Shown piece after piece: positions 9,300-29,344 of a stretch of 31,087 nucleotides of DNA; positions within the stretch are counted from its first letter, which is position 1, and the number at the start of each line of letters is the position of its first letter. The notes beneath the pieces were generated by a model. The model ran no database searches. It had not been told where the DNA came from and worked only from the letters and a program-made list of their open reading frames with translations. Origin of the DNA: a virus. Both the position numbers and the translations under genes were made by a program. The stretch lies in the IMG/VR virus record IMGVR_UViG_3300037493_006092, positions 1 to 31,087 of that record, one strand, 5' to 3'.

Positions 9300-10030
9300 C
9301 CTAAAGTATATATGTCTTCAATGGTTTTAATTTGCTCACTCCATACGTCTAAATTACACAACAAGGATTTAGATCCATCACTTAAGGCATTCTTTGGATC
9401 AGGGTGAATCTCAGCAAAAATACCATCAACCTGCAGTGTTGCTGCAGCTTTCATCAACTGAAAAGAATACTCTGGTTGAGTTGAGTGTGTTGCATCAAAG
9501 ATAACAGGATACTTAAGCTTTTGCATATCTATTATATGTGTAAAGTCGACAAAGGTTTGATTTCCAGAGTAACTTCCTCTTTCAATCAGTTGAATACGAT
9601 TGTTTCCAGTATCCAATATCTTATCAATCACATCTCCCATCTCAGATCCTTTCATCCACTGTGCTTTCTTTACATTTACAGTAAGACCGGTGTGACCGGC
9701 TGCTTTTAAAAGAGGGGTTTGACGTGAAAGAAAGGCAGGAATCTGAATTTCATCAACAACCTGACTAACCGGATAAGCTTGCCAGGATTCATGAATGTCA
9801 GTGGTCAACAACAAATCTGTTTCTTCTTTAATTCTTTTAAGAATCTCTAGCCCTTCGTCGATACCAATTCCGTGAAATGCATCCAATCTTGTACGATTCG
9901 CTTTCTCAAAAGAGGCTTTAAACACAAAGGTATGGTTAGGAAATCTCTTTTTTAGCATAACTACAAAGTCAGCAACATAAGCAGTGACTTCGTAGTTTTC
10001 AATTGAACAGGGTCCAAGAATGAATTTCAT
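9296..10030 (-). CDS. kdsA: 3-deoxy-D-manno-octulosonate 8-phosphate synthase (Kdo-8-P synthase)
   Basis: The 244-residue protein has the KdsA signatures LGPCSIEN (5-12), FKASFEKANRT (37-47), FLSRQTPLL (100-108), NVKKAQWM (119-126) and EIHPDPKNALSDG (207-219). It condenses phosphoenolpyruvate with arabinose 5-phosphate to Kdo 8-phosphate, the first committed step to Kdo of LPS. Cys8, His182, Glu207 and Asp218 form the full ligand set of the metal-dependent class, as in the Aquifex enzyme. It is shorter than bacterial KdsA (about 270-285): the N-terminus is trimmed and the loop after DATHSTQ is about 12 residues shorter. No other Kdo gene (kdsB, kdsC, kdsD) is present, so later steps would need the host, or the product has another use. 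It overlaps both neighbours by 4 bases. Confidence 0.93.
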   Translation of the reverse strand: MKFILGPCSIENYEVTAYVADFVVMLKKRFPNHTFVFKASFEKANRTRLDAFHGIGIDEGLEILKRIKEETDLLLTTDIHESWQAYPVSQVVDEIQIPAFLSRQTPLLKAAGHTGLTVNVKKAQWMKGSEMGDVIDKILDTGNNRIQLIERGSYSGNQTFVDFTHIIDMQKLKYPVIFDATHSTQPEYSFQLMKAAATLQVDGIFAEIHPDPKNALSDGSKSLLCNLDVWSEQIKTIEDIYTLG

Positions 10031-10548
10031 TTTAACTCTTGTGGTAAAAGTTTTTGTATATCATGCCAAATAAAATCAGATGATGTGATAAACGCATCGT
10101 AATTTTGAAAATTTTTAAAATCAACCTCATCAGCCTGCATTCTTCTTTTGATCGAATCTCCAGGCATTTGACGCGAAAACAATCTATTCAATCGATCTTC
10201 TGCTTTAATATCCAAATAGATGACAAATGATTCATCTCTATCCACACCCTCAGCATGAGAAAGACCCGCCGGAGTCATAATAAAAACTTTTTCAGTATCC
10301 CACTGCTCTTTTGTAGTACCGTAAATCCAACCATTAAAAGAAACATATTCTAAAAATATGTTGTCATTGATGTAATCTTGTGCCAGTTCTTCAGAAATAA
10401 ATTTGTAATCTATGCCTTCCTTTTCGCCCATACGAGCAGGACGAGTTGTATAACTAACAGCATTAGAATATCCATTTTCTAAAAAAACTCTTCTCAGATA
10501 GTCCTTGCCTGAAGCGGCTTTACCGACTAGGATAATTCTTTTTTTCAC
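10027..10548 (-). CDS. gmk: Guanylate-kinase-like nucleotide kinase
   Basis: The 173-residue protein starts with IILVGKAASGKDYLRR, a P-loop, followed by VSYTTRPARMGEKEGIDYKF, which matches the GMP-binding segment of guanylate kinases (TTRxxRxGExxGxDYxF). A later SRQMPGDSIKRRMQAD fits the lid and arginine-bearing region. It probably converts dGMP or GMP to the diphosphate. The protein is a little shorter than bacterial Gmk (about 205). With the thymidylate-kinase-like gene downstream it would cover the nucleotide supply that T4 handles with its single dNMP kinase gp1. Its ends overlap the neighbouring genes by 4 bases (ATGA), showing translational coupling to kdsA. Confidence 0.85.
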   Translation of the reverse strand: MKKRIILVGKAASGKDYLRRVFLENGYSNAVSYTTRPARMGEKEGIDYKFISEELAQDYINDNIFLEYVSFNGWIYGTTKEQWDTEKVFIMTPAGLSHAEGVDRDESFVIYLDIKAEDRLNRLFSRQMPGDSIKRRMQADEVDFKNFQNYDAFITSSDFIWHDIQKLLPQELK

Positions 10549-11072: not shown

Positions 11073-14000
11073 TTAATACCACTTTAATGTGGCATCACCG
11101 GCTTGGTGTCCCCAGAAAAGATCCGCCGCTGCTCCTGGAGAGTTTTCAAAGGCGTGAGAGACACTCGCTCCATTTCCGGTTGAGGGTGCATTACCGGTAG
11201 GACCTTGCGGGCCCCTCGGGCCCTGCGTACCGCGTGGGCCTGGGTTGGTGGCGGGTCCCTGATGACCAGTAACAGGTGGACCCTGTGGACCAGTAACTCC
11301 TCTAGGACCAAGTAAACCGATAGGCCCAATATAACCCGGGTTACCTGTACTAAATGGTCCTACAAATCCCTGAGGTCCACCAGTACCTTGAGAACCCTGG
11401 GGTCCGACACCAACACCCCCAGGAGGACCTTGAGGACCTTGTGGATTGGTAGAAACAGCACCCTGTGGACCCCTTGGACCCTGGGGGCCCTGATCCGGGA
11501 AAACATTTCCGGTCGGTCCCTGAAATCCCTGTGGACCTCGAGGACCCGCTGGACCCTGTGGTCCAATATCACCAGTAGGGGCGGTTCCTATTGGTCCCTG
11601 GTGACCCTGTGGACCCCTTGGACCCTGTGGACCCCTTGGTGCGGTTGCTTGAATGATTCCCTGTGGACCTGTCGGACCTGCGGGTTGAGGACCCTTAAGA
11701 CCTTGGTGTCCAAGAGGTCCCTGTAGACCTTGATAACCACCCGTCGGGGCGTCATCTCCGGGGTTAACCAATCCACCCTGATTACCAGTAGGACCTACCG
11801 CTCCCTGTGGACCTCTTGGGCCCTCAGGTTCAGGGCCCTTAATACCTTGGTATCCTCTAACACCCTGTGCTCCTCTTAGACCCTGATCCCCTGGAGGACC
11901 CGCTGGGCTCTGTGCTCCTCGTATTCCAATTGGACCTACATATCCAGCTGGACCCTGGTGTCCCCTTGGGCCGTCAGGCGCCAGCAGATTTCCAGTTGGT
12001 CCCTGGAATCCTTGCGGACCATTTGGACCCTGTGGACCGATCGGACCTTGCGGACCCTGTGGGTTGGGTGTGATAGGACCCTGATTACCTCTGAATCCTT
12101 GTGTACCTCTAGGACCCTGCGGTCCCAGCGCGCTTGGAAAACCCTGAGGACCTCTTGGACCCTCTGGTCTTGGACCGATAGGTCCCTGGTCTCCACGAGG
12201 ACCCCTTGGACCATCAAGCAGTGGACTGTTAGTACCTGCACCTTGGTCTCCTCGGTTACCAACCGGGCCCTGAGGACCCTGTATTCCCGCAGGGGATGCT
12301 ACTACACTACCTTGTGGTCCTTGAGGACCCTGTCCTCCTCTAGCCCCCTGGTCTCCACGGGGACCTGCGGGTCCTTGGTCACCTTGAACACCCTGAAATC
12401 CATCAAATCCCTGTGGTCCAATTGGACCCTGTGCTCCACCTGCATAAACTATTCCTGTGCCAGGAAGAACCAGACCACCTTGTGGTCCTTTAAATCCTTG
12501 GTGACCCTGCAATCCAAGATAACCCTGAGGACCCTGATAACCTTGTGAACCAACATCTCCCTGGTCTCCTCTAGTTGCGCTGCCGCCTTGACCTCCTTGG
12601 AAACCCTGGTTTCCTTGTGTACCTTGAAAACCTCTAAGATCGGCCTGTAAACCTTGATAACCCAGAAGACCTTGGTATCCCTGCGGACCAAACGGACCAA
12701 TAGGACCTTGAGGTCCTCCAAATACTTCATCTGCAATTTCATCGTACCATCCACCCTGGTGTCCTCTTGGGCCCTGAGGTCCCAATGCGCTTGGGTTTCC
12801 CTGGGGTCCTTTGAAACCTTGTGGTCCTTGGATACCTGCACCCTGTTTACCCTGGAATCCCTGATCCCCCCCGGGACCCTGTTGTCCCTGATCCCCTCTG
12901 GGCCCAAGTACTCCCTGTGGACCTTGGTATCCTGGATCTGAAGGTAGTGGTAATCCCTGAGGACCTTGAGGTCCCTGTATACCGCGATATCCCCGTGGGC
13001 CGATGTAACCCTGGTCTCCACGATTTCCTAAATCGCTTGGAATTCCCTGGTATCCTTGAAATCCTTGGAAACCCTGATCACCTCTGAATCCTTGATCACC
13101 AAGCAGTCCCTGAAAACCTCTAAGACCCTGTGCACCTTGAGTGCCTGGGTGTCCTTGAATACCCTGGCTTCCACGATAACCTTGGGGTCCTTCTTGACCC
13201 TGTATTCCTCTGAATCCTTGAGGACCTTGATCTCCTCTGTAACCCTGAAAACCTCGAAAACCCTGGCCTCCAAAACTAGTTTGATCACCTTGGTAACCCT
13301 GTGGACCTATACCCTGTGGGCCAAAAACACCTTGATCCCCAAGTGGACCCTGAGGACCAGTAAACCCTCTAGCTTCTCCAATTGCGCCTTGGTGTCCTCT
13401 GTAACCCTGATCTCCAAAATCTCCCTGGTTACCTTGGAAACCCTGTGGACCTTGATAACCTCCTCTTGCGACATCGCCTGACGGAGCGTCAACCCAACCT
13501 CCTTGATTTCCTCGAGGTCCCTGGTTTCCTAAGTGTCCCTGATCTCCTCTGTAACCCTGATCTCCACGGTTTCCTTTTGGGCCCTGCGGACCAAGATAAG
13601 TGGGATTACCTTTTCCTAACAGACCTTGGTAACCCTGATCTCCCTGGAATCCTGGATAACCCTGCGGTCCCTCTTTACCCTGGTCTCCTCTAAATCCTTG
13701 AGGTCCATACCAACCTGATACCTGTAAAGGTGGATCCGGGACTGGAAGTGGTTGTATTCCGTAACCCTGGTCTCCGCGGGCACCTTGAAATCCAAAAGTC
13801 GATGGGTGACCCTGCGATCCTCTGTAACCCTGGTCTCCACGATGTCCTTCAACACCCTGTCCTCCTCTTATAGACTGTGCACCTAGGTAACCTTGGGGTC
13901 CTTGATAACCTCTTTCACTGGGATGTCCCTGAAAGCCAAATAGACCCTGCTTCCCCTGGTATCCAAAATCACCCTGAAAACCTCTTTCTCCCTGGTCTCC

Positions 14001-14429
14001 TCTGTAACCCTGAGGTCCCTGGTAACCGAGTGTTCCCTGAAAACCTCTCGGTCCCTGGGTGCCTCTAGCACCCTGTGGACCTTGGTAACCCTGTGGTCCA
14101 CCCTGTCCTTGATATCCTCTAGTGCCCTGGTTTCCAAGATCTCCCTGTGCTCCAAAATAACCCTGATTTCCAACATAACCCTGTTTTCCAGCGGCACCGG
14201 TGGCACCGACCTGACCAGGATCTGCAAAGTTCAATCTAAAACCGGCAACTCCAACATCTTCAACCTTGAGTGACCAGTTTTCGTTTGTTTGTGGATCGCT
14301 TGGATCTGCTACTGGTCTATCAAATGGAAGTCTGTAGCCCTGTGCGCCAGAACCTATCCACACTTCTGGTGCTGCTAAAAAAAGCTTTCCTGATTTAATC
14401 AATATATTAAGTCCTGGTGGCGTTGGCAT
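11073..14429 (-). CDS. Giant collagen-like protein 1 (1118 aa), putative virion fibre
   Basis: A short non-collagen N-terminus (about 1-72, with Trp/Phe-rich segments such as [19 protein letters not shown]) leads into about 1000 residues of Gly-X-Y triplets, ending in a tail of about 30 residues ([19 protein letters not shown], then ATLKWY). The Y position is mostly Gln or Arg; X is Tyr, Phe, Asp, Asn or Pro. The last third is dominated by GPQGPR-type triplets. Interruptions recur ([43 protein letters not shown]). Such sequences form trimeric rods in phage fibres and bacterial surface proteins. No signal peptide is seen, fitting a virion component. Which virion part it belongs to, and whether it trimerises alone, is unknown. 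Confidence 0.85.
12715..12758 (-). repeat. Acidic interruption module, copy in collagen 1
   Basis: This stretch encodes [14 protein letters not shown] (about residues 558-571, the exact middle of collagen 1). A nearly identical DNA copy lies in collagen 3 at 20557-20600; the two 44-base segments differ at only two positions. The segment breaks the Gly-X-Y rhythm and is strongly acidic. Confidence 0.85.
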
Positions 14430-14435
14430 ACTAGT

Positions 14436-14443
14436 TATTTATA
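14436..14443 (-). promoter_or_regulatory. TATAAATA element before collagen 1
   Basis: An exact match to the T4 late promoter core TATAAATA lies on the minus strand in the 21-base gap between collagens 2 and 1. It is only 6 bases before the ATG at 14429, which would leave almost no leader, so promoter function is doubtful. Confidence 0.3.
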
Positions 14444-14450
14444 CAAATTT

Positions 14451-17400
14451 TTATGGTAGTCTCCATGCTGATCTTGAACCCGCAGGGTTTGCTGGGGTAT
14501 ATCTTACATACTGACTTTGGTTTACGTCCCAAGACGGAAGTCCTATAAGTCCTGCGTTGTTTGTTGTTAGATCACCCTGATGTCCAGTTAGACCCTGATA
14601 ACCCTGTGCGCCTGGAGGGCCTAGTGGCGAAGGTGGACCCTGTGAACCGGGTAATCCAGTAGGGCCCTGGCTGCCCTGTGGTCCTCTTGGGCCCTGTGGA
14701 CCTCTTGGACCCTGTGGACCTCTAGGACCTCCTGATGGAGGACCAACCGGACCCTGTGGACCCTGAGGACCTATATATCCTTGGTGACCAGGTTGAATTG
14801 GTCCCTGAAATCCTTGTGGTCCTTGACCGCCAACAGGACCCTGGTGTCCTCTAAATCCCTGGTTACCCTGTGCACCCTGTGGACCAGAAGGACCGATAAA
14901 TCCTAGGTAACCCTGGTCTCCAGTTCCTCCCTGTGGACCCCCTGGACCCTGAGGACCTCTTGCTTCTTGAACTGGTCCAATTGGACCCTGGTGTCCAACA
15001 AAACCTTGGTATCCTTGTACTCCTGTAAATACCGGACCCTGTGGACCCTGAGGACCCTGGTCTCCTTGCGTTCCTTGAGGTCCCTGGGGTCCACGTGGAC
15101 CCAGGAATCCCTGGAAACCTCTAGCACCCTGTGGGCCTGTGGGCTGTGGACCTTGATATCCTCTTGGACCCTGTACACCCTGGTTTCCAATTGGACCCTG
15201 GTAACCCCGATCTCCCTGGAATCCAAAAGGCCCTTGGGGTCCAATTGGACCTATACCCTGGAATCCAGCCGGACCCTGGTCTCCTCTGGTACCTGCTGGA
15301 CCCTGATAACCAGTAGCGCCTTGACCACCCTGTGGACCAGTAGGACCTATTAATCCTTGATCTCCCTGAGTGCCCTGCGGACCAACCGGTCCTTGATTGC
15401 CCTGAGCACCTCTTGTTGCGTTGAGAGGACCTTGATACCCTTGATCGCCTTGGAAACCTACAGATCCTTGGTCACCTCGTGTCTGTCCACCTTGATAACC
15501 CAACAGTCCTTGACCACCCTGTGTTCCCTGTGGTCCTTGGAAACCCTGATTTCCGGGCGGACCTTGGATCCCCTGAGGGCCCTGGTACCCAGTCGGCTGT
15601 GGACCCTGATTACCCCTTGGGCCTTGGCTACCTCTAGCGCCCTGAGGACCTTGGTGACCCTGTAGACCTTGCCAGCCGGCAGCACCCTGGTATCCTTGAG
15701 GTCCAAATCCCTGTGCTCCAACTGCTCCAGTAAATCCCTGAATTCCTCTTGGACCCTGTATACCCTGGACTCCCTGATCGCCTTGGTCTCCTCTGATGCC
15801 CTGATTTCCTAGGTATGCTCCGCCTTGTAATCCACTAGGTCCTTGGAAACCTTGACCGCCTTGATAACCGAAATTACCCTGATCTCCTCTTGGGCCCTGT
15901 GGGCCAGGAACTCCACCGGTATAACCCTGTGGACCAAATGGACCCTGGTAACCCTGATCTCCTCTAGTGCCCTGGTGACCCTGCGGTCCAAGCGGACCCT
16001 GTTGCCCTAGGTCACCCTGGAATCCTCTCGGCCCCTGTTCACCTATCACATCATCTCCTTGGTCTCCTCTGATACCCTGGTTACCTCTATCACCCTGTGG
16101 ACCTTGGTAACCTCTTACCCCTTGGTAACCCTGTAGACCGATATATCCTTGGTATCCAATAACAATTGGACCCTGTAATCCTCTTGGACCCTGAGGTCCC
16201 TGTGCGTCCTGCGCCCCTTGGAAACCCAATAGACCCTCGTAGCCCTGATCTCCTCTTGGACCCTGAGGTCCTTGATAGGCTTCACCTATAACTCCAGCAT
16301 CAGCACCTTGTATTCCTCTGTTTCCCTGATCTCCAAGATAACCCTGTAAACCGCGATAGCCCTGGACACCTCTGTATCCCTGAAGACCCTGAAACCCTTG
16401 TGTTCCAGGCCCCTGATCTCCTCGATAACCCTGATCTCCAATATAACCCTGTGGACCTACATATCCCTGGTCTCCTCTTGTATTTGATTGGTAACCTTGG
16501 TCTCCTCGGTATCCTTGGTCTCCTCGGTAACCCTGGGGTCCCTGGTCTCCTCGGAAACCATCTTCTCCCTTAGGACCAATAAAACCAGTATCTCCTTGGT
16601 AACCCTGGTCTCCGCGAGGACCCTGAAATCCTTGGATTCCAAAAACTCCTTGGTAACCTTGAGGACCCTGGTAACCTCTTGAGTTATCGATACCCTGTTT
16701 TCCTTGGTAACCTCTTTCGCCCTGCGGTCCTTGAAAACCTAGAGGTCCAAAATATCCTCCGTATGCTGTAGGTCCAAGTGTAAGACCACCCTGGAAACCT
16801 CTGTCTCCCTGGAAACCTCGGTCTCCCTGAACACCTCTTTCACCCTGGGATCCCTGTTGACCCCGGTTTCCCTGGTGTCCGCGAAGTTCTGGGTATTCAA
16901 AACCGAGACCTTGATATCCTCTTGGTCCCTGGTAACCCAAAAGCCCCTGGAATCCTCGAGAACCCTGATCTCCCTGGAATCCTTGAGGACCTTGGTAACC
17001 CTGTCCACCCTGGTATCCATCAAACCCTTGGTATCCCTGAGCGCCTTGGTGGCCCTGAAAGCCCTGTGGTCCTTGGTAACCCTGTGGTCCCTTGTCTCCT
17101 TGGTACCCTGTCACTGAGATTCCTTGGTAACCTCTGTCGCCCTGCGGTCCGGGGTATACACTATCATCTCCTTGATAACCTCTTAACCCTTGGTAACCGG
17201 TAAGTCCTTGGTTTCCTCTGTAGCCCTGCGCTCCTAGATAACCCTGTAAACCTTGGTATCCAACGTCTCCTTGATTTCCAAGAAAACCCTGAGGACCTCT
17301 TGCACCCTGGTATCCCTGTGCACCAAGATATCCCTGCGGTCCTTGGTAACCTTCGCCGGCGCCTTGAACTCCTCTGTTGCCCTGAACTCCAAAAACGCCC

Positions 17401-17648
17401 TGAACTCCGCTTAAGTCTTCAAAGTAAACAGTGCCCTCGTTCTTTCCAGCATATAAACTTTCCGAAGGATTAATAACAAGAGTAGTACCATCCGCGGGAC
17501 CAGTCGCTCCGGTAGATCCTGCTAAAACAAAAACACCAGCTTGAAAACTGGGATTAGCGGTTATAAACGCCTCTCCACCTCCCACTGCGGGAGTTGGATC
17601 AACCTTAAGATATGGTGTTCTAATTATATGTCTGCCGTTGCCTGCCAT
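14451..17648 (-). CDS. Giant collagen-like protein 2 (1065 aa), putative virion fibre
   Basis: The N-terminus (about 1-80, [19 protein letters not shown], then [18 protein letters not shown]) is followed by about 940 residues of Gly-X-Y and a C-terminal cap of about 35 residues ([17 protein letters not shown], ending AWRLP). The first half is exceptionally rich in GYQG, GFQG and GDQGYRG triplets, and the last third in [10 protein letters not shown]. The C-cap shares a [YW]DVN[NQ][AS]Q pattern with collagen 3. It is separated from collagen 3 by 15 bases and from collagen 1 by 21, so the three are probably cotranscribed. Like its paralogues it has no Cys-rich knot. A fibre or whisker role is inferred from composition and its place beside tail genes. 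Confidence 0.85.
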
Positions 17649-17663
17649 TTATATATGTATCTT

Positions 17664-20600
17664 TTATCCCAACCATGTAATTGTACTGTTTCCTGAAGAA
17701 TGGAATATGAGTTGTGCGTTGTTGACATCGTAGTCAGGGAATCCTCTTACATTATCGAAAAGAGTAGTGTACGAGTAACTTGTAGATGCAGGTCCTTGAA
17801 ATCCAGTAGGCCCAGGAGGTCCCGCTACATCAACACCTTGTGGTCCAAGACCGATGTTACCCTGGAATCCTTGATAACCAGTAACTCCTTGATAACCCTG
17901 GAATCCTTGATAGCCCTGTACTCCCCCAGGGGCTCCAAATAATGGCCCCTGGTGTCCTTGAGGACCGTTTGGGCCGCGGGGTCCCGGCGCAACTGGACCT
18001 GTGAATCCCTGGTCTCCGGTTGGACCTGTGGTTGGACTAGGGAATCCTTGCGGTCCCTGTACTCCAATATATCCTGGATAGTTTGGACCCATAGATCCCT
18101 GTTTACCGCGCGGGCCCTGCGCTGCAGTTCCATATCCCTGTGGACCTTGATGACCCTGAGCTCCTGTGATTGGACCAAGCGGACCCTGTAGACCGAAAGG
18201 TCCAATAAATCCAGTAGGACCTGGTGATTGTGGACCTATAAACCCTTGTGGACCCTGGAAACCTACAGTAGAAGAAATAGGTCCCTGATAGCCCTGAGGA
18301 CCTCTATCCCCTTGATAACCCTGAAGACCAAGAGGACCTTGCGGACCTTGTCCTCCTGCATATCCCTGTGGTCCAATATAACCGGTTGGTCCAATTGGAC
18401 CTACGTACCCCTGTGGACCCAATTCCGTAACGGGGTTGGGAGATACACCTTGATAGCCCTGTGGGCCCTGCGCCCCTGGAGTAGTGCTGGCGGCGGCTTG
18501 GTATCCCTGTGTACCCTGGTCTCCTCTTGGACCCTGATCCCCTTGGTAACCTGTGTAGTTTGGTCCCATTGACCCCTGTCTACCACGTGGGCCCTGTACT
18601 CCAGATGCTGGTCCTTGAAATCCCTGATAACCAAGTGTTCCGTCTATTGGTCCAGCTGGACCTTGATCACCTGTAAAAGTACCACTAATCTGACCAGATG
18701 GACCCTGGTATCCTGTTAAGTCGTTAGGTCCCTGGTATCCCCTTGATCCCTGGGGTCCAACGCTTGCAGCGATATCTCCCTGATAGCCAACAAGACCCTG
18801 CGGGCCAATGAAACCAATATTTCCAAGCGGACCCTGAGGACCTTGACCACCGGTGTATCCTTGAGCTCCATCATAACCTGTTAAAGGTATTGGAGAAGGA
18901 TTTCCGGGTGGACCCGGTGTAGTGCTTGGAGTGCCCTGGATCCCAACATAGCCTTGAGCACCAGGGCCCTCCTGTGGAGTTCCAAGATTTCCTTGATAAC
19001 CTCTAACCCCAGGGGTTCCTTGAAACCCGGGTTGCCCGAGGAACCCCTGTGGGCCTTGATAACCCTGTACTCCTCTAGCTCCTTGAAAACCAAGTTGACC
19101 CTGATAACCTCTAACGGAACTCGCGTAACCCTGTGGACCCTGGAATCCGATAGGACCGTCAGGACCCTGTGGACCAACTGGACCCTGGAATCCTCTAGGA
19201 CCCTGCAATCCTTGGAAACCCAGTGGACCCTGGAAACCTCTGACAGTGCCAATAGGCCCTTGATAGCCCTGGTTTCCTAAAAATCCCTGAGGACCCTGTA
19301 AACCCGTGTTTGTGGCGGGGCCTTGGAAACCCTGCGGTCCTTGCCATCCCTGCGGTCCCTCAGGACTTGGGAAACCAGTTACGCCTTGTATGCCTCTTGG
19401 GCCCTGGGGACCAATTGCAGCGTCAGCACCTACATCATCCGCCTTTGGACCTTGAAATCCCTGGTTTCCTTGATGTCCTCTTAACCCCTCAGGCGAGTCA
19501 TGTCCTTTTGCGCCAGTAATTCCTTGATAACCCTGGAAGCCTCTCTCTCCCTGTGTACCCTGTGGACCCTGTGGACCCTGTGGACCTTGGAATCCCTGTG
19601 TTCCTCTGTAACCCTGTATCCCATTGTAACCCTGTAATCCTCGGTAACCCTGGTCACCTTGATAACCCCGTGGTCCTATAAAAGCCGGTGTTTCTCCATC
19701 GGGACCCTGATATCCAAGAAATCCTTGTGGACCCTGGTTTCCTCTTACAGTTGAAGTATCGCCTTGGTGTCCTTGCACTCCTCTGGGGCCCTGGTAACCC
19801 TGATCTCCCCTGTAACCCTGATCGCCTACGTTTGCTTCAAACCCCTCGGGACCCTGGTCTCCAAGGGGGCCGGCCTTACCCTGTGGTCCGAGAAAGCCTT
19901 CGTGTCCTTGTAATCCTTGGTAACCCTGGTGACCCTGTGGACCTTGGAATCCCTGGTTTCCTTGATGTCCAAGCAGACCCTGTGGACCCTGCAGACCCTG
20001 ATAACCTCTAGTGCCCTGGTCTCCGAGAGGTCCCTGTGGTCCCTGGGGTCCTTGACTTCCTTGGTAACCGAAAAGACCCTGGTAGCCGAGATCTCCCTGG
20101 TAACCTTGAGTACCTTGATAACCTAAAAACGGTAATGGACCTTGATATCCTCTTTCGCCCTGTGTACCTTGGTAGCCACGTAGATCGCCGTCGTATCCCT
20201 GTTTTCCTTGGTAACCCTGTGGACCCTGTAGTCCAAGCAAACCAATATATCCTTTGTAACCCTGCGGTCCTCTAACCTCGTTTGTGTTGCCCTGGATTCC
20301 AAGAAATCCCTGATCTCCAAAGAATCCCTGATCTGCAGTTAAACCCTGATCCCCCTGGTCTCCACGAGCGCCTTGGGCTCCAAATTTTCCTTGGTAACCC
20401 TGAGGTCCTCTTTCACCATCTGCCCCTTGGCGGCCTCGAACCCCCTGGTCTCCTCGAGTTTCTGGGTAATTAGCACCAAGTCCTTGGTATCCAAGTTGTC
20501 CCTGTGATCCAAAATCTCCCTGAAATCCTCTTACAGTGCTAGCAGGTCCCTGATATCCTCCAAATACTTCATCTGCAATTTCATCGTAATATCCACCCTG

Positions 20601-20888
20601 AAACCCGCGCTCTCCTATCAAGCCCTGGGCTCCAAAAGAACCCTGAGCGCCCTTTGTTCCTTGAATACCTTGGTATCCTAAAGCGCCTTGGTATCCTAAA
20701 GAACCCTGAGCGCCCTGGGGACCAATCTGAGAATCAAAGAATATTTCACCAGTAGAAGCGTTGTATCTAAGATACTGTCCTTGAGTTCCCACGTGCTGTG
20801 GAAAGATGAACCTATCAAAGAAGTTCACCTGCCCAATCTCACCTAAAAATATAGAATCAGCGTTTTTAATTATATGCTGATCAGGCAT
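17664..20888 (-). CDS. Giant collagen-like protein 3 (1074 aa), putative virion fibre
   Basis: An N-terminal head of about 57 residues ([20 protein letters not shown], then [18 protein letters not shown]) resembles the short anchoring heads of phage fibre proteins. It is followed by about 975 residues of Gly-X-Y and a tail with [19 protein letters not shown] ending in TITWLG. It shares the acidic interruption [14 protein letters not shown] (residues about 97-110) with collagen 1. Breaks such as STVRG, GFEANVG and [15 protein letters not shown] recur at irregular spacing. It is the first of the three collagen genes in transcription order, 26 bases after the DEDDh exonuclease stop, and a TATATAAA element overlaps that stop. 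The role is inferred. Confidence 0.85.
20557..20600 (-). repeat. Acidic interruption module, copy in collagen 3
   Basis: This is the second copy of the 44-base module described at 12715-12758, here encoding [14 protein letters not shown] near the N-terminus of collagen 3. Near-identity in DNA between genes that otherwise differ in triplet order points to recent exchange or strong constraint. Confidence 0.85.
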
Positions 20889-21712: not shown

Positions 21713-24043
21713 TTAAGAAGAAGCGAGCAACTTTCCACCCGTAGCATCTCTAAGTTCTAAACGAACTCCACCGACTGCTTGCGCTATGTTTCCTGGAAGA
21801 TTATTAATTGCAGCAGTAAGACGTGCCATGTCAGCAGAATTGGTTGGTTTTCCCTCGACAACCTTTTCATCCCCGCCACCGGTGATTTTATTGGCAATAC
21901 CTCCAGCAAAAGTTAATGCTTTATCCACCGTATCACTGGCAAAATTTATAACTTTATTAAATCCACTGTTTTTGTCCGCTAACTCGTTGATTTCACTCAG
22001 AACATCATAAACTTTTTGTGACTTTTCAATCTGAATACTATTAATACCAGCAGAAAATGTTTGCATTGAAGTGGCGATTGATTGGAAAGAGAGCGCCATT
22101 TGCTGGAGCGGATTCTTGTATTTAATCAAAGTAGCTAACTGTTTATTCATTTTTTGAATAGATCCGGCAAAAAGAGTTGGAATCGCGTAATCTTCATATC
22201 CGCTTGGGAAGAATTTATCCAATGCTATATAAAAAGCACTTAATCCCTGCATATCGGTTATTGCGTTGATTTTTCTCAGCGCAGAGTTTATATTGTCAAT
22301 TCCTTTACCAGTTTCTTGTATAGCGTTCACTCTATCAGAAAGAGATAATACTATCTCCTCTGGAGTCATAGCCGGTGCTGTGCCCGAAATAAAAGAGATA
22401 AGAGCACCGGCCGCATTGAATACACTGCTCACTGCGCCACCTAAAGACGCCCCAAGCGTTGCAGCAGCTATTGCAGCTAAACCACCAGCCACAGCTAATA
22501 ATCCTCCTCCAAGAGCAACAAGATTACCTGCACCGATATTGGCCATTTTTTCGATGAAATCACCTAATGAATTAATTACAACACTAATGTTTGAAATAGC
22601 AGAGACTATAATATTTCCAATCATTTCAAATGCAGATTGGAAAATTGGTACAAAGGCTTGTACCACCTCAGCAATACCTGAAAAAATTACCTTTAATGGA
22701 TCAGCTACTTTCGTTATTAAATCACCTATAAACGGTCCAAGCTCTCGTATTACCTCTTTGAAAATCGGCAATCCTTTTTCAAGAAGATACAAGAAAACAT
22801 CTACAATTCTCATTCCAAAATAAGACAAAGCATCTGCCACATTATACAGCAAACCTCCAGGTTTAAACATTCCCTCTGGCAACAGTTGTAAAACATACGC
22901 CAAACCAACCACCGCTAAACCAGCAACTACAAGCCCGGCTGCTCCCAAGAGAAATCCTTGAATAGTAACGGCTCTTACAATTGCTCCAATAATACCAATC
23001 GTAAGAGCAAATGGTATCATACCTATACCAACACTGAACATCCAACCAAGGTCGGGTGCTTTGTATTCTTCTGGAAGCATTTGGAATATATATGCTACTC
23101 CAAGAATTGTCGCTGCTATTGCAATACCAGCCAGAGAAGCAAAAAGAATATCCTTTGGTCCAAGATTAAATTTATCAATCGTTGCTGCTGCCAAAACAAA
23201 CGGTAAACTAAACACAAGAATTGATAAACCAACCTTGAGTGACCAGATTGGATCTGGCGCCTTGTACTCATCAGGAAGAAGTGAAAAGGCATACGCAGCA
23301 CCAACAAGTCCAAGCGCAATCAATGGGATTGATGCTGCAGTAAGTGCAAGTTGTTTTATGTTTTCAAGTTTCTTTGACGCAACTAGAGCAAAAGGAATTG
23401 CAAAAAGCGCAAGAGCTAGCCCGGCTTTAAGAGTCCAAATTGGATCGGGTGCCATGCTTGGAGTCAATGTTGGCATCAAAGAAAGTATCAATGCACTTCC
23501 AACTATTCCAAGCGCAACCAATGGAAGGGCCACAGCAGCCCTTCGAATCTGCTTTTCATCCAAATCTTTCATTTTTTCAGCAGCATATGCAAATGCAGGA
23601 ACAATTATTCCTAGTGCAAGGGAAATGGCAATAACTCCAACTGGATTTAAAACAAATGCAGATGCAATACCAATTGCAATACCAAACGCACCGATTGCTG
23701 CTGCCATCAATAAAACATTTTTGGCAGTTGTTCCTAAACCAGCAGCAACGTTCTGTAATTTTTCAGCAGCTCCTGTTCTCTGAGTAGAAACTCCCTTTGA
23801 AACAGCATCTAGCTTTGCATTGCTTAAAACTATGTTTGCTTCAATTCTTTTTAGAACTGCAGTCTGTTTCTCGGTTTCAACAATTAGCTTTTCTAAATTT
23901 CTAACCGTTGAAACAACTCCACCCGTAATAACTTCAATTGCCTGTGTATTGTTCGCTGCAAGCGCTTCGATTTTAGCCATCGAAGACAAAAGACCCTCTT
24001 GAAGTTGAATGGATCTTGATTCAAACCCTTGTTTAAATGCCAA
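21713..24043 (-). CDS. Tape-measure-like tail protein with hydrophobic repeats
   Basis: The 776-residue protein has a helical, coiled-coil-like N-terminus (1-90), then a long hydrophobic region (about 100-425), then Ala/Gly-rich and helical segments. Position after the gp26-like and chaperone-like genes, large size and hydrophobic centre all fit a tape measure, which sets tail length and sits in the tail lumen, the role of gp29 in T4. Residues about 165-425 hold four repeats of 64-67 residues, each with a LP-E/D-EYKAPD-type turn (near 200, 264, 331 and 395) between hydrophobic helices. The start codon is TTG at 24043-24041; the next Met is residue 22. The TTG fits the 28-base gap and an A-rich leader. 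Direct homology to gp29 is not shown. Confidence 0.7.
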   Translation of the reverse strand: MAFKQGFESRSIQLQEGLLSSMAKIEALAANNTQAIEVITGGVVSTVRNLEKLIVETEKQTAVLKRIEANIVLSNAKLDAVSKGVSTQRTGAAEKLQNVAAGLGTTAKNVLLMAAAIGAFGIAIGIASAFVLNPVGVIAISLALGIIVPAFAYAAEKMKDLDEKQIRRAAVALPLVALGIVGSALILSLMPTLTPSMAPDPIWTLKAGLALALFAIPFALVASKKLENIKQLALTAASIPLIALGLVGAAYAFSLLPDEYKAPDPIWSLKVGLSILVFSLPFVLAAATIDKFNLGPKDILFASLAGIAIAATILGVAYIFQMLPEEYKAPDLGWMFSVGIGMIPFALTIGIIGAIVRAVTIQGFLLGAAGLVVAGLAVVGLAYVLQLLPEGMFKPGGLLYNVADALSYFGMRIVDVFLYLLEKGLPIFKEVIRELGPFIGDLITKVADPLKVIFSGIAEVVQAFVPIFQSAFEMIGNIIVSAISNISVVINSLGDFIEKMANIGAGNLVALGGGLLAVAGGLAAIAAATLGASLGGAVSSVFNAAGALISFISGTAPAMTPEEIVLSLSDRVNAIQETGKGIDNINSALRKINAITDMQGLSAFYIALDKFFPSGYEDYAIPTLFAGSIQKMNKQLATLIKYKNPLQQMALSFQSIATSMQTFSAGINSIQIEKSQKVYDVLSEINELADKNSGFNKVINFASDTVDKALTFAGGIANKITGGGDEKVVEGKPTNSADMARLTAAINNLPGNIAQAVGGVRLELRDATGGKLLASS

Positions 24044-24071: not shown

Positions 24072-24266
24072 TTAAAACCTAGGTGGTTTAAAACTAGGCA
24101 TCTTGTAATTTGAAGTGTTTGGCATCTTTGGGGTCTTTGGAATGTTTTGACTTCTTTCCTGCATCCCCGCTGAGTGCTTTTCATAACTCTTACGCTCAAT
24201 CTCGTTCTTTTCTTTGAGAAGCTCGTTCAGTTCCTCGATTGTTATTTCAAATTCATAGAAAGGCAT
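24072..24266 (-). CDS. Tail-assembly chaperone-like C-terminal part (gp51-like)
   Basis: From its first ATG this ORF gives only 64 residues: a helical start (PFYEFEITIEELNELLKEKN) and a Pro/Lys/Asn-rich tail. The same frame stays open upstream for at least 27 codons into the end of the gp26-like gene. It there encodes KAKVALYYHLRLQPSEIEN, with no ATG, GTG or TTG in that stretch. The run YYH...P-S-E-I-E-N-M-P-F-Y resembles the second half of tail-assembly chaperones, which are normally reached by ribosomal frameshifting from the gene upstream. The ORF sits right before the tape-measure-like gene, the conserved place for such chaperones. Either the 64-residue product is made alone, or the main product is a fusion of about 400 residues with the gp26-like protein. 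Confidence 0.6.
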   Translation of the reverse strand: MPFYEFEITIEELNELLKEKNEIERKSYEKHSAGMQERSQNIPKTPKMPNTSNYKMPSFKPPRF

Positions 24267-24326
24267 GTTTTCAATCTCACTAGGCTGTAACCTTAAATGA
24301 TAGTAAAGAGCAACCTTTGCCTTAAA
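24072..24326 (-). other. Possible programmed +1 frameshift extension, joining gp26-like and chaperone-like frames
   Basis: The gp26-like frame ends GAG CTT CTT TAA G. A +1 slip of the tRNA from CTT to TTT over the TAA stop would enter AAG GCA AAG GTT and read straight into the downstream ORF. The CTT-stop arrangement is like the +1 site of bacterial prfB (CTT TGA). A -2 slip would give the same frame. No strong upstream Shine-Dalgarno-like stimulator is visible, only GACGAG. Confidence 0.5.
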
Positions 24327-25275
24327 GAAGCTCGTCAGAGATATTTGAAATAACGAAGAAAGATTTGACGCCTCCGGGAAATGTTATCGGGAAGGTGGCC
24401 TCCTGACCACACTTTCCACAAGAGAGTGAAAACTCGGGTTTAACACCCACTTTAATCATTTCTGCAAGTCTAAACACCGTTGTATACTTAATGCCTGACC
24501 AACCGTTAAATTCTATCTCCTTTTGCTTTAGTGTATGTTCATTGAAACTTCTCCAATCTCTAACAAGATATGGAATAGTTTGTGCAAATGCTTTGTCCCA
24601 CTTCTCCTTTGCCTGCTCTCTCTTTTTAATGTAATCAGTAATAACTCTCATTACACCAATCGTGGGAGGTGCCATGTAGAATGTACCAGAAGATTTGGTT
24701 TCAATTACATACGAACGGTGTTCATCACTGTAGTATTTAGATACGGTTTCGTCCTCTTGGTGATACTGAAGATTTGTAGTTTTAAACTCGTATTTATCAC
24801 CAATCTCACAATCAGGTTGACTGCATTTGCTTGGAACATCCATCATAATTTTATTCTCACCGTTTTTAAAGGTAAGTTCTTTGATAGAAAGAACCACAAA
24901 AAGTCGATCCTCTTCCAAGATATCTTTGTATGAACCAGGAGCAGAAACATAAGAAACCCGCGCACAAGAAATAAGAATCTTGTTAATTTTTTCATCAACA
25001 TCTAAAAGATTGGTCTCATCCATGGTTGAGAAATCTCTAATCTCAGAAACCTTAGCAGGTCTAATCAGGATTTTCATATCGGATCTGTAAAAACGTCCCC
25101 TTGACGGTAAGTTTTCCATAACGAGTTCGAGGTGGCCTGTCATCTCTTTAATCCTTTTAATATCAGGATCTTCAGATGGGTTATCGTTTACTCGAACCTT
25201 ACCGAGAGAAGAAGTAATATTTTCTTGCTCCTCAAACTCTCTTTTTAGTGCTTCTTCGTGAGAAATCTCATCCAT
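24322..25275 (-). CDS. 26: T4 gp26-like baseplate hub / tail-assembly protein
   Basis: The 317-residue protein has the core I associate with the T4 baseplate (gp26) family: LVMENLPSRGRFY (51-63), MKILIRPAKVSEIRDFS, DVDEKINKILISC (92-104), then a long helical part and a C-terminal metal-binding look. Two Cys pairs, CSQPDC (151-156) and CGKC (286-289), could form a four-Cys zinc site. In T4, gp26 is needed for hub assembly and acts near gp51 and the tape measure, the same order seen here. The start overlaps the stop of the 77-residue gene by 8 bases. The end carries the possible +1 frameshift site. The family call is moderate; the protein is longer than T4 gp26 (208). Confidence 0.65.
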   Translation of the reverse strand: MDEISHEEALKREFEEQENITSSLGKVRVNDNPSEDPDIKRIKEMTGHLELVMENLPSRGRFYRSDMKILIRPAKVSEIRDFSTMDETNLLDVDEKINKILISCARVSYVSAPGSYKDILEEDRLFVVLSIKELTFKNGENKIMMDVPSKCSQPDCEIGDKYEFKTTNLQYHQEDETVSKYYSDEHRSYVIETKSSGTFYMAPPTIGVMRVITDYIKKREQAKEKWDKAFAQTIPYLVRDWRSFNEHTLKQKEIEFNGWSGIKYTTVFRLAEMIKVGVKPEFSLSCGKCGQEATFPITFPGGVKSFFVISNISDELL

Positions 25276-25501
25276 TTTTTTTGTGATTTTTTAAAATTTT
25301 CTTTGCAACATCCACTACAAAACTTTTTTGTTCAGGTGTATTTTCAGTGATATGTTCTTTTATAACTTCTCTTACATATGAAGAAAGTGAAACTGGTCTC
25401 ACCCCCTGTTCCAAGGACTTACGAGCAATAATTATGTTTAAAGCACGCTGATCCTCCTTTGTAAGTAGAACCTGAAGTTTTTCTGTCAGATTGTTTTTCA
25501 T
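25268..25501 (-). CDS. Small ribbon-helix-helix-like protein (77 aa)
   Basis: The sequence KLQVLLTKEDQRALNIII (8-25) gives a short strand and a helix, and VSLSSYVREVIKEHI (36-50) gives the second helix with the SxSxYVRE pattern of ribbon-helix-helix DNA-binding proteins (CopG/MetJ-like). A basic C-terminus follows (KKILKNHKKNG). Such proteins bind DNA as dimers through the strand and often repress their own operon. It lies directly after the UUCG terminator that ends the tube gene, so it has its own promoter. An imperfect palindrome 11-31 bases upstream of the ATG may be its operator. Its 3' end overlaps the gp26-like gene by 8 bases. A structural small protein is the alternative. Confidence 0.6.
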   Translation of the reverse strand: MKNNLTEKLQVLLTKEDQRALNIIIARKSLEQGVRPVSLSSYVREVIKEHITENTPEQKSFVVDVAKKILKNHKKNG

Positions 25502-25584: not shown

Positions 25585-26139
25585 TTAACCTCCAACGTTT
25601 TCTTCTAACCAGTAATCTGATCTCAAAGTTATTCCAACAATACCGGCGTCTTGTGTTGCATAATCCAAATCGTTGATGAATGTGATTTGAGCAGTTGGAA
25701 AAACATCTTTAAATGTAACTCTTCTAAAGATATCACCGGCTCTGTTATACTGAACAACAACCATTGATCCAACATAATCTCTCTTCAATCCCATTTCTCC
25801 AGTTAGTGGATCATAAACAAGATTATACCAATTTCTCATTGCATTATAAATGTATGCTTCGTTAGCATCATTTAAGTTCACAGAGAACTCGAGAGTTAGA
25901 TCAACGAAGGTTTGAGCTGGCATTCCAGCATATGATCTATCTGAGAACTTATACTTTTGTCCAACAGCTTCAATAGATGGATTAACTCCGTCTAAACCTC
26001 CAATTTTATTAACATGTTGTAAAATCAAACCCGTGTCTGCATTCGTTGGAGTAAGTATTGTTACCTCAAAAAGATTGGGGTAAATTGGTTCATACTTATT
26101 CAAAGATGCCTTTGACTGTGTATAATGTGGTAGTGGCAT
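25585..26139 (-). CDS. 19: Tail tube protein (gp19-like)
   Basis: The 184-residue protein follows the T4 tube pattern: NLFEVTILTP, YAGMPAQTFVDLTLEFSVN, AYIYNAMRNWYNLVYDPLTG (93-112), GDIFRRVTFKDVFPTAQ and a last strand VGITLRSDYW. Tube subunits stack in hexameric rings inside the sheath and channel DNA. The length is close to T4 gp19 (163). It directly follows the sheath gene, the conserved 18-19 order, with GATATATAAA in the 25-base gap and an A-rich leader. The stop is followed by a strong terminator. Confidence 0.92.
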   Translation of the reverse strand: MPLPHYTQSKASLNKYEPIYPNLFEVTILTPTNADTGLILQHVNKIGGLDGVNPSIEAVGQKYKFSDRSYAGMPAQTFVDLTLEFSVNLNDANEAYIYNAMRNWYNLVYDPLTGEMGLKRDYVGSMVVVQYNRAGDIFRRVTFKDVFPTAQITFINDLDYATQDAGIVGITLRSDYWLEENVGG

Positions 26140-26164: not shown

Positions 26165-29100
26165 TTACACAAACTGTCCAGTTGAAATCTGACCGGTTCT
26201 TAGGATAGTTGTTCTGTGAACAAGAATTTCCATGCCTTTTACTGGTTCGATGTAAGTATCGAGAATACCAACGTTTGCATCAATAACATCAGGAGTGTTG
26301 TTCGTTTCGTCCATGATGTTTCTAAAATCATAAACACCATTTTCTGCTAAAACAGTAGTCATAAAGTTATCAGCAAGCGTCTTAATCTCTAGTCTGGTTT
26401 GTGCAGTATTAAATTCGAACAAGTAATTTTTGAGAATAGCTGCAATACCGTCTTGAATGTAAATTACAACCTCTCTAACGTTTATACTAGAAAGAGCACT
26501 CTTTACATTCTGTTGAGCTGTTTTGTTTCCAAAGATCACAATCCCAGAACCCGTTTGGAAGATGATTGGGTTCAGCCCGAATGGTTCAATATTGTCTCTA
26601 TCGGTTGTAGTGAAGTTGTACTCCAGTCCAACAATTCCTCTACCTGATACAACACCTCTTCTGGCTCCTGCAACAATTGACCATGGAGTTGCGTCGATAT
26701 ACTTAGCGATAAAGTCATTAGAAACTGCAGCAGCCGGTGGTACATTTACGTTAACTCCATTATCTCTTACAGTTAAGAATGGAGAGTAGAATGCCATATA
26801 GTTCGATCCATCGGTGATTGAAGGAAGCGAGTATCTAACAGTAGGATTCTTACTAAGATCTCCTCCAGTAGGAATGAAACGAGTATCAAACTGTCCTTGT
26901 ACATTTTTAAATGAGGGATCAGTGCTGTCCTTAAAGTCTTGAACAGAAGGCGCATTTACGATTGCAAATGCATTTTGACGATTCTTCGCAATCTTACCGA
27001 AGATTGACTTGGAATTTGCCTCTAATCCATTACCAAAAGTGTCAACCAAATATCTGAATGAAATAACATCTCTATCGATTAATGCATAATAAAGATTTGT
27101 TCCGCTTAGGGTATCAAATAAGATATTGTTTTGCTGAGAGTTTGTGCCATCAGGAACATTGTAAGAACCTAACGCAAACCCTGGAAGAGCAAACGCTTGG
27201 TAGCAATCAAACCAATTAGTGATTGGCTGATAAACTTCAACATTTTTATTTGCACCTACGGTGAAAAGATAAACAGTGCTCTCACACACAACTTTAATGT
27301 AATCTCCAGCGGTAGAAGAACCTGCAGGAACATAATTGCTCAATCCAATAACCTCGTTAATACGAGTTAATCTAGAAGGAACTCCATTTGCAGTACTACC
27401 TGGGTTGTTTACTATGTAGTAACCAACTTCAAAATCTCCAGCAGATGCGGCGGCGAGTATAACCTCATTTGGATTAAGTGAAGATCCGGGTTTACCGTAA
27501 TACTCTGCAGCTTGAACTGAAGTATTTAAAGAACCCTTAAGAGATTGTACTCCAAGAGTACCTGCGGCCTCTTGAACACCGGTGCTATCGAAGAAGAATT
27601 TTCCTGCAACATTAATTCCAAAATCAGAATCAGTTGAGATTGCAGTTCCGGTAAAGTTCGCGGTATCAAATGCATTTATTGAGATTACAGGAACTGGATA
27701 TGAAGTTGCATTGTTAATTAACGTCACCAAATCAGTGGATCCATCGTTTGAATAGATTTCAGTGTCAGTAGCAACGTTGAAATCAAGATAAATTGTATCT
27801 GCAACACCATATGTTGTACCAAACTGTGCAATGTCTCCATCGGTTAATACTCCAGAAGTTACATCCGAATAAAGAGTTGATGAGTAACCTCCAAGAATTG
27901 TTCCAACGTTACCATCCTTTTGAACAAAATAGTTAATAGAAGTTGGATTCAAATATGGAAGAGAGGTTGAGAACCATGTGTCATTAATAGAAGTAGAATC
28001 AACAATAACAGTTGCTGTTGCCGAGGTTATTGCTACTTCGATAACAGGGGCCCAGTATGCATTACCTCCGCTTTCGGCGTAAACATAAGTACCTATCGTT
28101 CTAGGATTATCAACATTTGCCGTAAAAGATGCTAAAGCGTTGTAAGCTGCAAGGTTAGTTGTTTTAGTTGCAACAATTTCGATTTCGTTTCCAGTGAGAG
28201 ATGTAACTGTTACTCCAGAGGCAATTGAAACTGTTGAATGAACAGGTATTGATTCTGAGTAAGATAAATCAGAAACAATATTACCATTGTAAGAAAGAAA
28301 ATCTACGGTAGTTGGACGAGTTCTTTCGAGTTCGTGACCAACCAAATCGATACCTCCGTCAACACCATCAATAAGCTCGCCCAAACCAAAGGCTGAGGTG
28401 TTAACAGCACAGAAAAGTCCGGTTACTGAAGTGTCTTGGTTAATAAGAGTTTCAATGAATAGATTATTTCCGTTCAAATCAGTAAAGTCAGGAAGCAATG
28501 AACCTGTGTAAATAGCGATCTCATTTACCTCAGGAAGATTTAAGAAAGCTTGAAGTTGAGTGTCTTGAGTGTCAGCAGAATTTGCCTTTCTGATCAAACC
28601 ATTTTGCTTATCGAAATAAGGTTCGTAAATAGCATCTGCGGTAAATCTCTCATATGGATAAGCAGCAGATGAATCAGCTCCGTAATCCCCTTGAATTACG
28701 ATCACATCAATCATAAAGTCAGAAATTAAAGAGTCCTTGTTCAAATAATCAGGTACATTTGAAGTACCGTAGAAAGTTTCAGCCGTGATATTTAACCCGG
28801 GAACGTTTTCGTTTGCAGCCTTTCTAACAACAACAGTAATAGGTGTTCTTCCAAGGTTTACAAGATTGAAAAGCTTGTCAATTGAGTTTTCAGTGTAGTT
28901 AACATTTGATAAGAATGCTTCTGTTTCAGGAAAGAAAAAAGCATCAGTATTATAATACCCAGAGTATAACTCATTTGCAAACCCTTCATTTGGCTCTGTG
29001 GCGCTTGCTGAGAAAATATATGCTTTGTCTTTGTCTCCGGTGGTAGCATCATTATTGAGTCTTAAAAGGTTAAGAGCCAAGATTGGCCCACTCTCAAGAG

Positions 29101-29344
29101 CAGTTAAACAACTTCTTTGGAAGTAAGAGTCCTTTCTTTCTAGTTTTCTATCGATATTTCCAAATACTGAAACGAAAAAGCCAGAGTCAGGACAGTATAC
29201 TGGAGTGTTAAATGGGCCTTGGTTAGAAAAACCAACAACCAATCTAATTTGTTCAGCAGGAATACTTACTGTTTGGCTTTTATCAAACTCAAGTCTGTAT
29301 ACTCCAGCAGACTTAAAAGCTGCAATTTTAGGATCTAATGCCAT
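26165..29344 (-). CDS. 18: Contractile tail sheath protein (gp18-like) with large central insertion
   Basis: The 1059-residue protein has recognisable sheath ends. The N-terminus (AGVYRLEFDKSQTVSIP, then VVGFSNQGPFNTPV) is the domain that threads between subunits. The C-terminus has INVREVVIYIQDGIAAILKN, FEFNTAQTRLEIK, GVYDFRNIMDETNNTPDVID (1001-1020) and EPVKGMEILVHRTT, close to T4 gp18. T4 gp18 is 659 residues, so about 400 residues extra sit in the centre, rich in Ser, Thr, Val and Gly, probably surface beta domains that decorate the tail. The sheath contracts to drive the tube into the host. An A-rich leader and a TATATAA element precede the ATG. Confidence 0.93.
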   Translation of the reverse strand: MALDPKIAAFKSAGVYRLEFDKSQTVSIPAEQIRLVVGFSNQGPFNTPVYCPDSGFFVSVFGNIDRKLERKDSYFQRSCLTALESGPILALNLLRLNNDATTGDKDKAYIFSASATEPNEGFANELYSGYYNTDAFFFPETEAFLSNVNYTENSIDKLFNLVNLGRTPITVVVRKAANENVPGLNITAETFYGTSNVPDYLNKDSLISDFMIDVIVIQGDYGADSSAAYPYERFTADAIYEPYFDKQNGLIRKANSADTQDTQLQAFLNLPEVNEIAIYTGSLLPDFTDLNGNNLFIETLINQDTSVTGLFCAVNTSAFGLGELIDGVDGGIDLVGHELERTRPTTVDFLSYNGNIVSDLSYSESIPVHSTVSIASGVTVTSLTGNEIEIVATKTTNLAAYNALASFTANVDNPRTIGTYVYAESGGNAYWAPVIEVAITSATATVIVDSTSINDTWFSTSLPYLNPTSINYFVQKDGNVGTILGGYSSTLYSDVTSGVLTDGDIAQFGTTYGVADTIYLDFNVATDTEIYSNDGSTDLVTLINNATSYPVPVISINAFDTANFTGTAISTDSDFGINVAGKFFFDSTGVQEAAGTLGVQSLKGSLNTSVQAAEYYGKPGSSLNPNEVILAAASAGDFEVGYYIVNNPGSTANGVPSRLTRINEVIGLSNYVPAGSSTAGDYIKVVCESTVYLFTVGANKNVEVYQPITNWFDCYQAFALPGFALGSYNVPDGTNSQQNNILFDTLSGTNLYYALIDRDVISFRYLVDTFGNGLEANSKSIFGKIAKNRQNAFAIVNAPSVQDFKDSTDPSFKNVQGQFDTRFIPTGGDLSKNPTVRYSLPSITDGSNYMAFYSPFLTVRDNGVNVNVPPAAAVSNDFIAKYIDATPWSIVAGARRGVVSGRGIVGLEYNFTTTDRDNIEPFGLNPIIFQTGSGIVIFGNKTAQQNVKSALSSINVREVVIYIQDGIAAILKNYLFEFNTAQTRLEIKTLADNFMTTVLAENGVYDFRNIMDETNNTPDVIDANVGILDTYIEPVKGMEILVHRTTILRTGQISTGQFV

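Follow-up and report, generated by a model that had tools for sequence, protein, structure and literature searches.

The locus and its gene order

The window (the whole stretch of viral DNA analysed here, 31,087 nucleotides) carries a series of tail genes in the order sheath, tail tube, 77-aa ORF, chaperone and tape-measure-like protein (Table 1). The tail tube gene and the 77-aa ORF, the 3' end of which overlaps the start of the chaperone gene, are conserved in more than 150 loci. The downstream 776-aa ORF is rich in Ala, Leu, Ile and Gly, has many hydrophobic segments and shows a weak match to phrog_2335 (E 0.11). The chaperone gene is located in the G/GT position, i.e. between the tail tube gene and the tape-measure-like gene. 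In a 2025 paper, no identifiable tape measure gene was reported for the "moraphages", jumbo phages of aquatic Bacteroidota (PMC12619734).

The chaperone gene consists of two parts. A gp26-like ORF of 317 codons, whose 3' end reads GAC GAG CTT CTT TAA G, encodes a protein with similarity to phrog_150 (baseplate hub; E 2.6e-6) and phrog_36717 (E 2.8e-26). The open stretch of the +1 frame begins 20 codons before this TAA, reads KAKVALYYHLRLQPSEIENMPFYEFE... and stops at 24072. The CTT CTT TAA G end and a start-less +1 frame, open from before the stop, had been noticed in a preliminary description of this DNA, and both are confirmed in the window. The 317-residue and roughly 400-residue products proposed there are supported as predicted products: joined to the 0-frame part, the extension would bring the long form to 400 aa (+1) or 401 aa (-2).

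Table 1. Coordinates of the chaperone gene, its internal features and its neighbours in the window
Feature	Position	Strand	Basis or remarks
Tail tube protein (gp19-like), upstream neighbour	25585..26139	-	phrog_45, E 4.5e-11; present in 159 loci
77-aa ORF, between tail tube and chaperone gene	25268..25501	-	conserved, 156 loci
gp26-like 0-frame ORF, 317 aa, predicted short form	24322..25275	-	ORF list; stop TAA 24324-24322
Proposed shift box TCT TTC TTC G(TT), codons -13 to -10 before TAA	24352..24363	-	selection switch, net +1 or -2; TCT TTC TTC = 24355-24363
Putative +1-frame extension, without usable start, gp51-like C-terminal helices	24072..24353	-	translation; phrog_634
Dual-coded overlap	24325..24353	-	0-frame VISNISDELL; +1 frame LFQISLTSFF
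Perfect 12-bp inverted repeat	24241..24354	-	sequence; GTTATTTCAAAT (24354-24343) and ATTTGAAATAAC (24252-24241)
Region with excess RNA folding, 16-121 nt past the box	24233..24338	-	versus synonymous recoding, main clade
Internal ATG	24264..24266	-	conserved protein upstream of ATG
Tape-measure-like protein, 776 aa, downstream neighbour	21713..24043	-	composition, position

Other parts of the window (all minus strand) also have unusual features. The sheath ORF (26165-29344) encodes 1059 aa, and the Pfam sheath domain matches its C-terminal part only; T4 gp18, with 659 aa, is much shorter. Three successive giant collagen-like ORFs of 1118, 1065 and 1074 aa (11073-20888), built of GPQG/GxQG repeats, probably encode fibre proteins, and their length and number look unusual for one phage. 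They lie beside a group of sugar and nucleotide genes (7090-10548), recognized by appearance only: UDP-galactopyranose mutase-like (7090-8172), glycosyltransferase-like (8172-9299), KDO-8-phosphate synthase-like (9296-10030) and guanylate kinase-like (10027-10548). A 244-aa ORF (995-1729) resembles, by eye, the sigma-70 family, and is possibly a sigma factor of late transcription.

Conservation of the overlapping layout

Relatives of the chaperone gene were sought by tblastn and by pattern scans. They were found in metagenomic phages of 462-735 kb, in the Prevotella Lak phages and Sphingomonas phage PAU, as well as in Tenacibaculum phages PTm1 and pT24, Chryseobacterium phages MA9V-1/2 and Flavobacterium phage MaF61. 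The scans of IMG/VR yielded 363 relatives for the gp26-like part and 236 for the extension, and 80 from each set were retained; scans seeded with Lak and Chryseobacterium phage proteins revealed no further relatives.

Among 98 distinct relatives (Bacteroidota jumbo phages, Lak phages and the 460-735 kb phages), an automatic call assigned the extension to the +1 frame in 97, and the gp26-like ORF ends with TAA in 97 and with TGA in one. The exception to the call, L148, has an upstream deletion, and in L108 the extension lies on a separate ORF with its own ATG (around 2380-2740 of L108), the frameshift having seemingly been lost or replaced in this variant. With both set aside, the stop and the open upstream frame are kept in 96/98 of these relatives and, with TAA throughout, in 36/36 unique sequences of a second, distant clade, found with a 642-kb phage as seed, these counts being of sequences and not of independent events. 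The proposed link between the two frames thus survived the refutation tests set in the preliminary description. An independent relative with 79% identity also retains the same stop and frame. The extension of Lak-B5 contains an in-frame TAG, which would be read as sense if this phage uses the TAG reassignment of Lak phages.

In a single sequence, one inserted or deleted base would mimic such a layout. However, about 130 distinct sequences, drawn from unrelated assemblies and including those of cultured phages, share this stop and frame, and both parts of the gene are under purifying selection. A sequencing or assembly error, or a decayed gene, is therefore an extremely improbable explanation; assembly error was rejected on account of this recurrence. 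Judged from the sequences compared, the overlap is neither an error nor the product of chance.

The proposed place and direction of the frame change

Variability per codon position was analyzed in 38-43 sequences, each less than 90% identical. Up to codon -14, pN/pS in the main clade is 0.44 for the 0-frame and 1.16 for the +1 frame, whereas from codon -10 to TAA the roles are swapped (1.25 and 0.27, respectively). The wobble positions of the 0-frame are nearly invariant in the overlap (mean entropy 0.45 vs 1.34, p = 0.0003). The second clade gave comparable values for the +1 frame, i.e. pN/pS of 1.19 upstream and 0.30 in the overlap. Since selection switches at codon -10 in both clades, the +1 frame appears to be translated already about 10 codons before the stop.

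The protein encoded by the overlap was examined in the same respect. The +1-frame peptide SLFQIS..NFFK has counterparts in PAU (SLIQLP), PTm1 (SLIRVP) and MaF61 (SLFQVD). The window product matches phrog_634 (the T4 gp51 family), across the junction and with an E value of 1.2e-4, when its two parts are joined at codon -11, whereas the product joined at the stop gave no match to this family. Two relatives likewise match phrog_634 with the codon -11 join only (three proteins in all). The separate extension ORF of L108 encodes KSILSMFKINLENFFKAK of the overlap although the overlap itself is undone, and for this reason the stretch should be considered part of the extension and not a by-product of the 0-frame. 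Selection, profile matches and the L108 variant all show a predicted start of +1-frame translation about 10 codons upstream of TAA. The corresponding junction peptides would be SFFLFQISLTSFFK or SFFSLFQISLTSFFK in the window (shift at the box; SFFVISNISDELLK for a slip at the stop) and YLFLIQLPSLR (+1) or YLFSLIQLPSLR (-2) in PAU.

The extension could instead be a separate gene, with its own start or translated by re-initiation after TAA, in which case no fusion would be made. In L108 and a near copy the extension does form an ORF of its own, whose ATG lies 5 nt past TAA; the overlap of MaF61 contains ATG ATG, where a restart is possible; and annotators place extension starts at internal ATGs, as in the annotated ORF of Chryseobacterium phage MA9V-1. 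However, the +1 frame of the window contains no ATG, GTG or TTG across the 20 codons upstream of TAA (with one CTG and one ATA as the sole near-cognate codons), and the first such codon after TAA is the ATG at 24266. ATG, GTG and TTG are also absent upstream of the junction in 18/49 other representatives, and where start codons do occur there among the 49 representatives, they have no conserved place. Moreover, a start at the internal ATG would remove conserved residues, which makes this codon unlikely to mark the true N-terminus of the extension, and the constraint on the +1 frame starts exactly where that on the 0-frame ends. We therefore regard a separate gene as quite improbable.

The preliminary description located the slip at the final CTT before the stop, as in prfB (release factor 2, CUU-UGA, +1). 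The window and most of the main clade indeed resemble prfB in having CTT before the stop and an open +1 frame after it: CTT is the last codon in 68/91 main-clade sequences, compared with 27% of Leu codons, and CUU-U is the best known +1 site (PMC5009743). An RNA structure 3' of TAA could stimulate such a slip, and selected RNA folding does start just past the stop. In 43 main-clade relatives, the region 16-121 nt past the box has a mean folding z of -3.0 to -3.6 versus synonymous recoding (-0.5 to 0.2 in control regions elsewhere in the gene); the values of the window itself are weaker than the main-clade mean. Folding is strongest just after TAA, about 40 nt from the box, a position which fits better with a slip at the stop; it is the sole feature of this kind and is left unexplained by a shift at the box. 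One idea is that a ribosome terminating at TAA, 10 codons past the box, could hold the following ribosome at the box. RNAalifold detected no single consensus fold over 38 sequences, and in the second clade any folding signal is weak and adjoins the box. The two arms of the 12-bp inverted repeat pair in the minimum-energy fold of the window, and the stem is, by eye, only partly kept in close relatives.

Against a slip on CTT-TAA stand the purifying selection seen in the +1 frame before the stop (from codon -10, pN/pS 0.27 vs 1.25 for the 0-frame), the gp51 match confined to the upstream join and the extension peptide of L108, none of which it explains. The gene also differs from prfB in that its stop is TAA and the +1 frame is apparently translated before it. 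A Shine-Dalgarno-like stimulator adjoining the box or CTT is absent from the window, which has TCTCTGACGAGCTTCTTTAAG, and from the relatives listed, and the upstream Gly-Gly codons vary synonymously. CTT is not kept between the clades: it precedes TAA in none of the 36 second-clade sequences, which end with GAA-TAA or AAA-TAA, nor in PAU, the Lak phages and others, and the last codon is varied in distant relatives. CTT-TAA is thus not the shared element. A slip at this place was rejected on the basis of the +1-frame selection, the gp51 match, the L108 peptide and the second clade; we consider it unlikely, and the slip site proposed earlier probably wrong.

The shift box, in our reading the place of the frame change, lies just outside the interval 24250-24340 given in the preliminary description, whose observation of overlapping frames was nevertheless real. 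The box has the consensus NNT NTN TTY (T-NTN-TTY); its commonest main-clade form is [GT]CT CTN TTC, and most second-clade sequences have NGT ATT TTC GTT. Of 49 representatives, 47 have T at the wobble position of codon -13, and codon -11 is TTC in 39/49, compared with 25% of Phe codons elsewhere in the gene. In 40/49 sequences the box and the TAA after it are 10 codons apart, a distance of about one ribosome footprint. A canonical -1 slippery site (X XXY YYZ) is not present, and the extension sits in the +1/-2 frame; nor does the box correspond to any known slippery sequence, re-pairing being imperfect for every model, also in the window. The box resembles superficially the influenza PA-X site (UCC_UUU_CGU vs UCU UUC UUC GUU), but PA-X slips from UUU to UUC, which the UUC codon disallows here.

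The shift may be net +1, or -2 rather than +1. A serine codon directly follows the box in 40/49 representatives, and this, together with the invariant wobble T of codon -13, favours -2, which would add one residue. The gp51-profile scores slightly favour +1, by 0.8-3 bits (+1 and -2 joins, respectively: 24.6 and 23.8, 24.0 and 21.0, 20.9 and 19.2). The proposed box would be a new one, and a -2 shift would be of a rare kind.

Relation to T4 gp26 and gp51 and to known frameshifted genes

T4 gp26 and gp51 are listed as chaperones of hub assembly; gp51 is described as essential, of unknown function and not present in the particle (PMC3004832). The two proteins fall into PF12322 and phrog_150, and compared profile to profile they match over most of their length (E 1.4e-22), gp51 being longer at the C-terminus. 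In terms of these comparisons, the T4 proteins are full-length paralogues, a short and a long version, and not two halves. The statement in the preliminary description that T4 has the two parts as separate genes 26 and 51 was thus wrong, gp51 being the long form, while its proposed connection with gp51 is supported by the phrog_634 match across the codon -11 junction.

The short form here resembles gp26, which ends (...GLKEFFELL) at the place where the window gene has ...GVKSFF and shifts. T4 gp51 consists of a gp26-type domain followed by a continuation that parallels the +1-frame extension. The similarity is remote, and in T4 a pair of full-length paralogous genes, encoded on opposite strands, stands in place of a single frame-changing gene. 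When the profile of the fused family was compared directly with gp51 the result was not significant, so the putative homology of the extension is based on the phrog_634 matches and colinearity. The window gave no Pfam match to PF12322, despite its similarity to phrog_150, and its relative L089 scored below the cutoff (E 8.8e-5, 22.7 bits; cutoff 24.5). The fused product, modelled with a pLDDT of 84.6, matches in structure many phage proteins named "baseplate hub" and "T4-like hub assembly"; sequence and fold searches of the PDB, with the fused model included, found no relative. These profiles also detected no gp26/gp51 relative in the approximately 145 of 181 kb of Prochlorococcus phage P-HM1 that were covered.

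The linkage of the gp26-like ORF, by a frame change, to the start-less extension upstream of the tape-measure-like gene is supported by our analysis. We consider it highly probable that one gene yields two nested tail-assembly chaperones through a net +1/-2 shift at the T-NTN-TTY box. Sequence statistics establish the use of the frames and its conservation; the products, their ratio and their function are inferred. Most ribosomes would read the 0-frame to TAA and make the gp26-like short form, the counterpart of lambda gpG; a minority would shift by net +1 (equivalently -2) at the box, about 10 codons before TAA, and make the long form with a helical gp51-like extension, the counterpart of gpGT, so that the stretch from the box to TAA would be coded in both frames. 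Given the position of the gene and its homology to T4 gp26/gp51, both forms would take part in the assembly of baseplate hub, tape measure and tube; the short form would bind the tape measure or hub, and the long form would add the contact made by T4 gp51. This single frameshifted gene, in a distant relative of T4, probably does the job of the T4 gp26/gp51 pair in the manner of G/GT, the same two forms coming in T4 from two paralogous genes.

The arrangement is close to lambda gpG/gpGT, where one gene, located between tail tube and tape measure, also gives a short and a frameshift-extended form, with an overlap that lacks a second start codon and is conserved over a large family. It differs in that no sequence similarity was found, the shift is net +1 or -2 and not at the usual -1 slippery heptamer, and the core is a T4_baseplate-type protein of 317 aa, larger than gpG. 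The lambda details are in part general background and in part those of PMC5009743. No match to a known tail-assembly-chaperone Pfam family was found. The families of these chaperones are dissimilar to one another. The -1 heptamer is not universal in the G/GT group: phage Mu, the classic case, uses -2 (PMC3498833). Shifts of +1 are found in structural genes of Listeria phages PSA and A118 and Bacillus phage SPP1; these, however, extend the tail tube protein (in PSA also the capsid protein), and in the Listeria cases the shift occurs at a proline codon adjoining a stop or pseudoknot.

A review describes G-T frameshifting as a conserved trait of long-tailed phages "except T4" (PMC5009743). Our data suggest that the separate helper genes of T4 are the duplicated form of a frameshift which is near-universal in these phages. 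We lean slightly towards a scenario in which the ancestral gp26/gp51 gene shifted by net +1 (possibly -2), as it would still do in the jumbo and huge phages of Bacteroidota, and the T4 lineage exchanged the shift for a duplication (gene 26 short, gene 51 long), leaving no true exception to G/GT; the change may have run from frameshift to duplication or the other way. Our search of the open-access literature revealed no previous description of either this frameshift or the equivalence to gp26/gp51. If one frameshifted gene does make both counterparts, the T4 exception to G-T frameshifting disappears and gp51 gains a testable role as the GT-like form. Hundreds of jumbo-phage genomes annotated from the internal ATG would then contain a long protein that has been missed.
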